A stretch of 64,000 nucleotides of DNA. Source: a bacterium. GTDB lineage: Bacteria > Chloroflexota > Dehalococcoidia > Tepidiformales > Tepidiformaceae. The stretch lies in NCBI GenBank assembly GCA_003577245.1, contig QEVS01000001.1, forward strand, positions 337,306 through 401,305. The letters run 5' to 3'. The notes under the pieces are model-generated. The model did no database searches and had not been told where the DNA came from. It was given only the letters and a program-made list of their open reading frames with translations. The translations under genes and the position numbers were made by a program. Shown in pieces: positions 62,573-64,000 of the stretch (the stretch's first letter is position 1; every line of letters starts with the position of its first letter).

Positions 62573-62763
62573 CCGCCGCCAACACAGGAGCGCGCTATCC
62601 CTTGCCGGCGCCGGGCAGCCGCTGCGTCTCTCCCGCGAACCGGCATAGCCACCGGGCAGTTGGCCCGGCCGCCGTCTCGAACAGCCACATCCCGTTCGAA
62701 AGGGCTGTGCAGCGCCTTCCCCCGGTGCTAACTTGCGCGGGAGATAACAGGGAGGTTCGGACC

Positions 62764-63468
62764 ATGTCCCAGCCCGAGCTGGTGCAGCGCGCCTACACCG
62801 CGATCATGCGCCACAGCGTGGAGCACGGGGTCGCACCCCACTTCACGACCCTCGCCCGCGAAATCGGCGTCACCCCCGACGATGCCCTTGATCTCCAGGG
62901 AGAGGCTGCGAAGGCCGCCGTCGGCTGCTGGATCAGCCACGACACCGACTATATCCACTCCTTCGCACCCTTCTCCAACCTGCCCACCCAGTACCGCCTG
63001 AGCGTGGACGGAGTTGAGAAATGGTATGGCCAGTGAGGGCTCGAATCGCTGGCCGTGCGCTGGCTCTTCCCCGGCAAAGAAGTCCGCATCGATGCCCCCT
63101 GCCTCGACTGCGGCGAGCCCATCGTCGTCCGCATGCGCGACGAAGAGATCCTCGAGGTTGATCCGCCCGAAACCGTCGGCCACACCGTCCGCTCATTCGT
63201 CAAACGGAGCGATGAATCGGCGGCCTTCAGGTGAAGCCGCATGAACCTCTTCCGGTCGGAAGAGCATGCAAAGGCCTGGTCCCGGTACGAGCCTGAGTCG
63301 GCGGATGGCATCCTGCCGCTGGCGGAGTGGGCCCGCATCTTCAGCGGACCCCTCTTCCGCGACCGCCTGCGCGAAGACTACCTTTCCCGTCGAGGCGAAG
63401 GGATGGCCGCCTTCATGCAGGCAATCGCCGGCCTGGCGAAGACAGGGCCATTCTGGCAGCCCGGCTAA
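62764..63468 (+). CDS. Alkylmercury-lyase (MerB)-like selenoprotein with two in-frame UGA codons
   Basis: One frame of 234 codons from ATG 62764 (GGGAGG 9 bases upstream) to TAA 63468, containing TGA at 63034-63036 (codon 91) and 63232-63234 (codon 157). The N-terminal ~80 residues are the MerB helical domain. The core then matches E. coli MerB piece by piece. VEKWYGQ[U]GLESLA aligns with the Cys96/Asp99 site (RLYAWCALDTL); the Glu three residues after the first Sec replaces Asp99. DAPCLDCGEPIVV aligns with the Cys117 segment, and FR[U]SRMNLFRSEEHAKAW with the Cys159 segment ahead of HFF. Both TGAs thus replace the two catalytic cysteines. Stem-loops follow both. MerB cleaves C-Hg bonds; here no mer genes are nearby and the substrate is unknown. 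Family and recoding are inferred; a gene finder would call two short unrelated genes. Confidence 0.82.
63037..63072 (+). promoter_or_regulatory. Candidate bacterial SECIS element 1
   Basis: Immediately after the first TGA: GGG (63037-63039) pairs with CCC (63070-63072), GAA (63043-63045) with TTC (63067-63069), and GGCC (63051-63054) with GGCT (63062-63065). The apical loop GTGCGCT begins with GU, 22-23 nucleotides from the U of UGA. The stem is interrupted by an internal loop, so it is weaker than element 2. Confidence 0.5.
63239..63269 (+). promoter_or_regulatory. Candidate bacterial SECIS element 2
   Basis: GCATG (63239-63243) pairs with CATGC (63265-63269). A 3-base bulge AAC follows, then CTCTTCC (63247-63253) pairs perfectly with GGAAGAG (63258-63264) around loop GGTC. 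The upper stem-loop starts 12 bases after the TGA and the loop G-G-U falls at nucleotides 23-25 counting from the U of UGA. That is close to what I recall of the E. coli fdhF arrangement (about 11 bases, loop G and U at 23-24). Confidence 0.78.
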
Positions 63469-63764: not shown

Positions 63765-64000
63765 ATTTTGATGGCAACCGCTACGTCTACGGCGCCGGGC
63801 TGGAGTCGATGGTGACCCCCACCGGCAGCTACTACTACCTGGCCGACGGTCTGGGCTCGACCATGGCGATGGTCGATAGTACCGGCATGGTGCAGAAGAG
63901 CTACACCTACGACGTCTACGGCAAGCCGGCGGCCACCGGAGCGCTGGCGAACGAGTTCGACTTCGCGGGCCAGCAGACCGATCCCACGGGCCTCCAGTAC
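63740..64000 (+). pseudogene. RHS-repeat-associated core fragment (5' end missing, runs off window)
   Basis: In frame with the window end the sequence reads FDGNRYVYGAGLES, then YYYLADGLGSTMAMVDSTG, SYTYDVYGKPAATG and FDFAGQQTDPTGLQY. This is the classic RHS-repeat-associated core (YYxxDxLGSxxxxxDxxG, YDxYGxxxxxxG, FxGQxxDxxTGLYY). A stop at 63737 and the absence of a start and of upstream YD repeats show that the 5' part is missing; homology begins at about 63767. RHS proteins deliver variable C-terminal toxins; the toxin end would lie beyond the window. Confidence 0.82.

Follow-up and report, generated by a model that had tools for sequence, protein, structure and literature searches.

The closest described system to the gene considered here is the organomercurial lyase MerB, in which Cys96 and Cys159 hold the mercury and Asp99 contributes to binding and to proton transfer (PMC4525700). 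A survey of MerB screened the proteins on Cys96, Asp99, Cys159 and Cys117, and its consulted part names only the variants 99Ser and 117alt (PMC8261052). MerB-like proteins with selenocysteine (Sec) are represented by one family, SaoL, which has a single Sec within a CU motif, in the consulted part of a catalogue of 119 selenoprotein families (PMC13188914); PMC9312934 gives the same SaoL accession. Here we describe a MerB-superfamily gene in a 64,000-nucleotide stretch of bacterial DNA (the window), which forms the end of contig C13 in the source assembly (G000, 2.16 Mb, given as 72% complete). Both columns of the active-site cysteines are occupied by TGA in this gene, and a conserved hairpin shaped like a bacterial Sec insertion sequence (bSECIS) follows each TGA; the gene is thus likely to encode a double-Sec enzyme. 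We suggest, with a probability of roughly 0.6, that this enzyme cleaves carbon-mercury or related carbon-metal bonds. Considered apart, the production of a double-Sec protein is very likely, and lysis of a carbon-metal bond is the probable function of such a protein, if it is made.

The gene is a single frame of 234 codons, and the only in-frame TGA codons are 91 and 157, as the original prediction had claimed and re-reading of the sequence confirms (Table 1). The two codons stand in the contexts GQ-U-G and FR-U-S, respectively, and UGA would be read as Sec at both. The Pfam MerB domain (PF03243) matches the protein at 8.5e-21 (74.7 bits; cut-off 27). The predicted fold, supported by a high-confidence model and by matches to the Protein Data Bank (PDB; 3f0o and 5c17), is that of MerB and is not thioredoxin-like. 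In the PDB alignment codon 91 falls on MerB Cys96, Glu94 on Asp99, codon 157 on Cys159 and Cys113 on Cys117. The earlier alignment, with the TGAs on the two thiols of MerB at a spacing of 66 against 63 and Glu, three residues past the first TGA, in place of Asp99, is borne out.

Two named families were tried and rejected. The canonical MerB models NF009710 and NF033555 give 36.6 and 35 bits, below their cut-offs of 193 and 200, and at the canonical positions Cys96, Asp99, Cys159 and Cys117 (PMC8261052) the window gene has TGA, Glu, TGA and Cys. The SaoL model (NF040728) gives 37 bits against a cut-off of 140, and the SaoL pattern of one Sec in a CU motif (PMC13188914) differs from the two TGAs of the window gene, which are preceded by Gln and Arg; SaoL is compared here by description and model score. 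No cut-off of any NCBIfam model (June 2026) is passed by the window protein, and the SaoL model has no match above its cut-off among 386 genomes of the class. Hence, the window protein is a MerB-superfamily member outside canonical MerB and SaoL as these are set by the cut-offs.

In its anatomy the window protein resembles MerB, with which it shares the fold, the Pfam domain, the two metal-ligand positions, the position of the acidic residue and Cys at the 117 column. It differs from MerB in TGA (predicted Sec) for both cysteines, Glu for Asp99, the additional conserved Cys116, a longer C-terminal part and the lack of a mer operon. SaoL is likewise MerB-like and catalogued as a selenoprotein. 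MbdU (NF045648) and the metal-binding protein NF041115 also have two Sec and are both named metal-binding; by description, their domain models and motifs set them apart from the window protein (PMC13188914). No second MerB-like selenoprotein beyond SaoL was found in the literature searched, which included the consulted parts of PMC13188914, PMC9312934, PMC12013277 and PMC2398784 and did not extend to the original reports on SaoL and newer selenoproteins. Within that literature and NCBIfam of June 2026 the double-TGA MerB-like gene appears not to have been described before.

Table 1. Features of the MerB-like gene and their positions in the window
Feature	Position	Strand	Basis
MerB-superfamily gene with two in-frame TGA codons; ATG at 62764, TAA stop at 63466-63468	62764..63468	+	Open reading frame, Pfam MerB, fold model and PDB matches
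TGA codon 91, predicted Sec, MerB Cys96 column	63034..63036	+	PDB alignment, relatives
TGA codon 157, predicted Sec, MerB Cys159 column	63232..63234	+	PDB alignment, relatives
Glu94, MerB Asp99 column, predicted proton donor	63043..63045	+	PDB alignment; Glu in 121/121 aligned rows
Cys113-x-x-Cys116	63100..63111	+	Both invariant in 100 rows; Cys113 at MerB Cys117 column
SECIS-like hairpin 1: 6-bp stem GCUGGC/GCUGGC, 5-nt loop CGUGC; the loop begins after 17 nt from TGA 91	63048..63064	+	
SECIS-like hairpin 2: 7-bp stem CUCUUCC/GGAAGAG, loop GGUC; the loop begins after 19 nt from TGA 157; encodes LFRSEE	63247..63264	+	
GGGAGG, ribosome-binding-like stretch, 8 nt upstream of ATG	62750..62755	+	Sequence

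The pair of TGA codons is preserved in relatives. Among the 10 loci from a contig scan of one genome per species, both columns are TGA in eight (L019-L026), Cys is followed by TGA in L027, and L028 is partial; of 393 genomes searched in the class, 26 had MerB-like matches. After removal of two loci duplicating L019 and L020, exactly two TGAs at columns 91 and 157, with no other stop in the matched stretch, are present in 16 distinct genomes including that of the window. The same TGA pair in 16 genomes is beyond chance or error. The corresponding proteins are 45-88% identical to the window protein, and the record titles, mostly of metagenome assemblies, name Chloroflexota (and members), Nitrospirae, Acidobacteria and Desulforhabdus sp. 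TSK (L023). One further copy, on contig C10 of G365 (L041, L055, L068), has TGA at both columns in a frame broken by a frameshift and a TAG. Homologues with Cys at the two columns, which the original prediction had proposed to look for together with TGA in other genomes, are found as well, and Ser occurs rarely: when TGA is written as Cys, all 16 members of a selected set of MerB-like proteins have Cys at column 157 and 15 have it at column 91, the exception being P0006 with Ser.

In protein databases the gene is hidden from annotation. The best 120 of 261 database proteins were aligned with the query, in which Cys was written for each TGA. Of the resulting 121 rows, 51 show Trp at both columns, while in 63 column 91 is Cys and the protein terminates immediately before column 157. 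The remainder comprises three Cys/Cys rows (one of them the query), two Ser/Trp, one Ser/Cys and one Trp row with a shifted tail. The Trp rows, judged like all database rows from the protein sequence only, most likely represent TGA translated by the gene caller: P0004, 95% identical to the product of L022, has W exactly where the L022 DNA has TGA, and the pair P0002/L021 is alike. An end before column 157 is expected from a TGA at that column, and the DNA of L036-L038 has TGC at column 91 and TGA at column 157.

Both hairpins of the window gene satisfy the bSECIS rule of PMC13188914 (stem of 4-16 bp, loop of 3-9 nt, G in loop positions 1-2, distance of 16-37 nt from the UGA, minimum free energy of -7.5 or lower), and their 45-nt folds have -12.6 and -19.1 kcal/mol for hairpins 1 and 2, respectively. 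Their conservation was compared with 1000 synonymous shuffles per gene in 14 double-TGA genes; of the total of 16, L019 and L032 were omitted as near kin. The stem pairs are kept in 84/84 cases in hairpin 1, where the shuffles reach at most 72, and in 94/98 cases in hairpin 2, where they reach at most 84. Codon identity beyond codon usage, calculated in 10-codon windows, is highest at starts 153-164, followed by 91 and 90; the excess is at best 0.51 and 0.27, respectively, with a mean of 0.07 and a standard deviation of 0.10 over 178 windows. Phe163 is TTC in 14/14 genes, Arg164 is CGG in 13/13 and Ser165 is TCG in 14/14. We assign the hairpins because of these tests of pair and codon conservation, and not because of free energy.

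The hairpins also change the view of the protein segments between and after the TGAs, which the original prediction had described as intact structural segments. The segments are indeed kept; however, MNLFRSEEHAKAW is not protein structure alone: its codons also make up the second SECIS-like hairpin. The LFRSEEH motif owes its conservation at least in part to an RNA hairpin, and RNA may drive it as much as protein. The all-Cys relatives carry other residues at this stretch. Rfam gives only two matches near the MerB-like gene, on the opposite strand and both far under the gathering score.

The source genome has a tRNA-Sec (69.6 bits, anticodon tca), and selB and selD, both sought in this genome alone, are above their cut-offs. 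In the class 269/393 genomes have a tRNA-Sec, among them all 11 with the double-TGA gene, counting the broken copy (one-sided p 0.014); tRNA-Sec is also found in five of the six genomes of L021-L026. selA is present in 256/393 genomes of the class and in 8/11 with the double-TGA gene, among them the same-genus G077, with no enrichment (p 0.43). The selD gene of the source genome (C13:267549-268484, L016) has one in-frame TGA and is probably itself a selenoprotein gene.

We suggest the following sequence of events for the predicted enzyme. Sec91 and Sec157, as selenolates, would grip R-Hg+ between them. Glu94, replacing Asp99, would then give a proton to the leaving carbon, R-H would depart and Hg(II) would remain on the two seleniums. 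Since Se-Hg bonds are tighter than S-Hg bonds, the release of Hg(II) would need strong outside thiols or selenols, and might proceed via the Cys113/Cys116 pair or MerA. Thus worded, the super-affinity organomercurial lyase of the original prediction is a function that we infer from sequence. More tentatively, and somewhat short of an even chance, the family may represent a selenium version of the MerB site, i.e. a two-selenolate organometal lyase of at least four phyla with the Cys96 column swapping between Cys, Sec and Ser and the Cys159 column mostly Sec, possibly serving for trace methylmercury or organometals on which thiol MerB performs poorly.

Several observations weigh against a double-Sec carbon-metal lyase. 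On the side of the RNA, the free energy of hairpin 1 is ordinary (z 1.17, with 173/200 shuffles equally good), and in several genes neither hairpin beats the synonymous shuffles on energy, e.g. at TGA157 of L024 (rank 121/200) and of L026 (99/200). The 84/84 and 94/98 kept pairs refer to a geometry derived from the same sequences, and the shuffles leave shared ancestry in place. Hairpin 1 is also intact in three close relatives whose column 91 is Cys (18/18 pairs, matched by 9/1000 shuffles), where it is either a relic of recent exchange or partly a product of protein and base composition. Of the Sec machinery, whose presence had been proposed as a check and is otherwise found, selA was not detected in the 72%-complete source assembly, nor in G169 and G289, and tRNA-Sec was not detected in the genome of L022. 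On the side of function, the carboxylate at the Asp99 column is kept but as Glu; the gene lies outside a mer operon, none of its neighbours recurring in more than three of the 21 stretches compared; and MerA is above the cut-off in just 4/17 double-TGA genomes, the broken copy counted. Finally, the source genome has merA (488.9 bits, C15:38000-39385) and beside it, on the same strand, a gene for a 193-aa MerB-like protein (Pfam 93.1 bits, C15:37125-37706, L069), whose three catalytic columns read Cys, Asp and Cys and whose Cys117 column is not Cys. The double-TGA gene is thus not the only MerB of this genome; G077 carries the same pair of merA and Cys-type merB-like genes. The original prediction had reported no merA/R/T nearby, and this holds for the open reading frames listed for 52-64 kb of the window, among which none was seen by eye, while merA does exist elsewhere in the genome.

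These points bear on the alternatives, which we order as action on another organometal, then metal capture without cleavage, then redox chemistry. The first two amount to a double-Sec MerB-fold protein that does not act on organomercurials and either has another organometal(loid) substrate or captures and hands over soft metals without cleaving a carbon-metal bond. We regard this as unlikely, since the protein retains the two metal-ligand columns and has a carboxylate in the place of the proton donor, and merA co-occurs with MerB-like genes, although Glu for Asp99 and two Sec for two Cys do alter the site, the gene stands alone and the genome has another merB, of Cys type, next to merA. Binding of other metals is reported for a MerB variant at position 99 (PMC8261052), and some of the catalogued two-Sec families are named metal-binding (PMC13188914), which also speaks for such a protein. 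The co-occurrence is seen in the class, where MerA is present in 28/393 genomes and nine genomes are common to MerA and MerB-like genes of any type (p 1.7e-5). For the double-TGA gene the class sample has MerA in 3/10 genomes (p 0.028), two of the three being from one genus. A relative with TGA only at column 157 adjoins merA.

A redox enzyme, in which a diselenide or selenenylsulfide would reduce peroxides or disulfides on a re-used MerB fold, is improbable. A redox role is assumed for most known selenoproteins (PMC13188914), and the Glu-type set has the extra invariant Cys113 and Cys116, but both Sec are exactly on the metal-binding columns of MerB, the fold is not thioredoxin-like and Glu94 is present in every aligned row. 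Decay, sequencing error or a different decoding of UGA (e.g. as Trp), with a broken gene or no selenoprotein as the result, could be invoked for the broken G365 copy, the 51 Trp rows from metagenome gene calls and the missing selA, but is rejected as very improbable and largely contradicted already by the same TGA pair, with no other stop and always at the Cys columns, in 16 genomes, by the codon-preserved hairpins and by the tRNA-Sec of the source genome.

The double-Sec lyase that we favor has relatives with a single TGA. L036-L038 and a clade of L027, L043, L044, L048, L050 and L054 share with the window gene the second TGA and hairpin 2 (60/63 pairs kept in nine genes), and differ from it in Cys at column 91 and, in the clade of L027, in Asp at the Asp99 column. 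No published name for these relatives was found in the sources searched. In a tree of 72 rows the Glu-type clade (58 rows, support 98/99) includes every double-TGA gene entered. Column 91 requires 13 changes among TGA, Cys and Ser if Trp is taken as TGA, and nine for the TGA label are forced by well-supported branches; column 157 requires six if Trp and truncation are both taken as TGA. With rows having DNA evidence only, three changes remain at column 91 and three at column 157. Repeated exchange of Cys and Sec at column 91 is likely, as judged largely from the metagenome rows.

A distant MerB-like gene of G007 (L053, C211:32354-32848), with TGA at the Cys159 column only, adjoins merA (C211:33193-34575), and would represent a selenoprotein-type MerB in a mer setting.

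If the proposed function is true, the window gene encodes an enzyme with Sec as both catalytic metal ligands in a non-redox reaction. The exchange of Cys and Sec at one catalytic column would offer a natural series for what selenium gains over sulfur in carbon-mercury cleavage. With the residue screen of PMC8261052, as given in its consulted part, double-TGA genes would go uncounted as demethylation genes.

The neighborhoods were compared in 21 stretches including the window, of which L027 and L063-L065 are from single-TGA relatives and L068 holds the broken copy. If the gene and the shadow frames that overlap it are disregarded, three neighbor groups recur, each in three stretches, and give no operon clue: frames of ABC type in L019, L027 and the window; a response regulator close to L067, L021 and L068, with the Pfam assignment made on L067 only; and an NADH:flavin oxidoreductase. 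No plasmid matches the gene. The oxidoreductase adjoins the MerB-like gene in L058 (7711-9864), L059 (3875-6028) and L064 (3994-5979); L058 and L059 are of one genus, and the Pfam assignment is on the L058 copy. Directly downstream of the window gene an RHS/YD-repeat-like frame, recognized by eye, occupies 63770-64000 and runs off the contig end.
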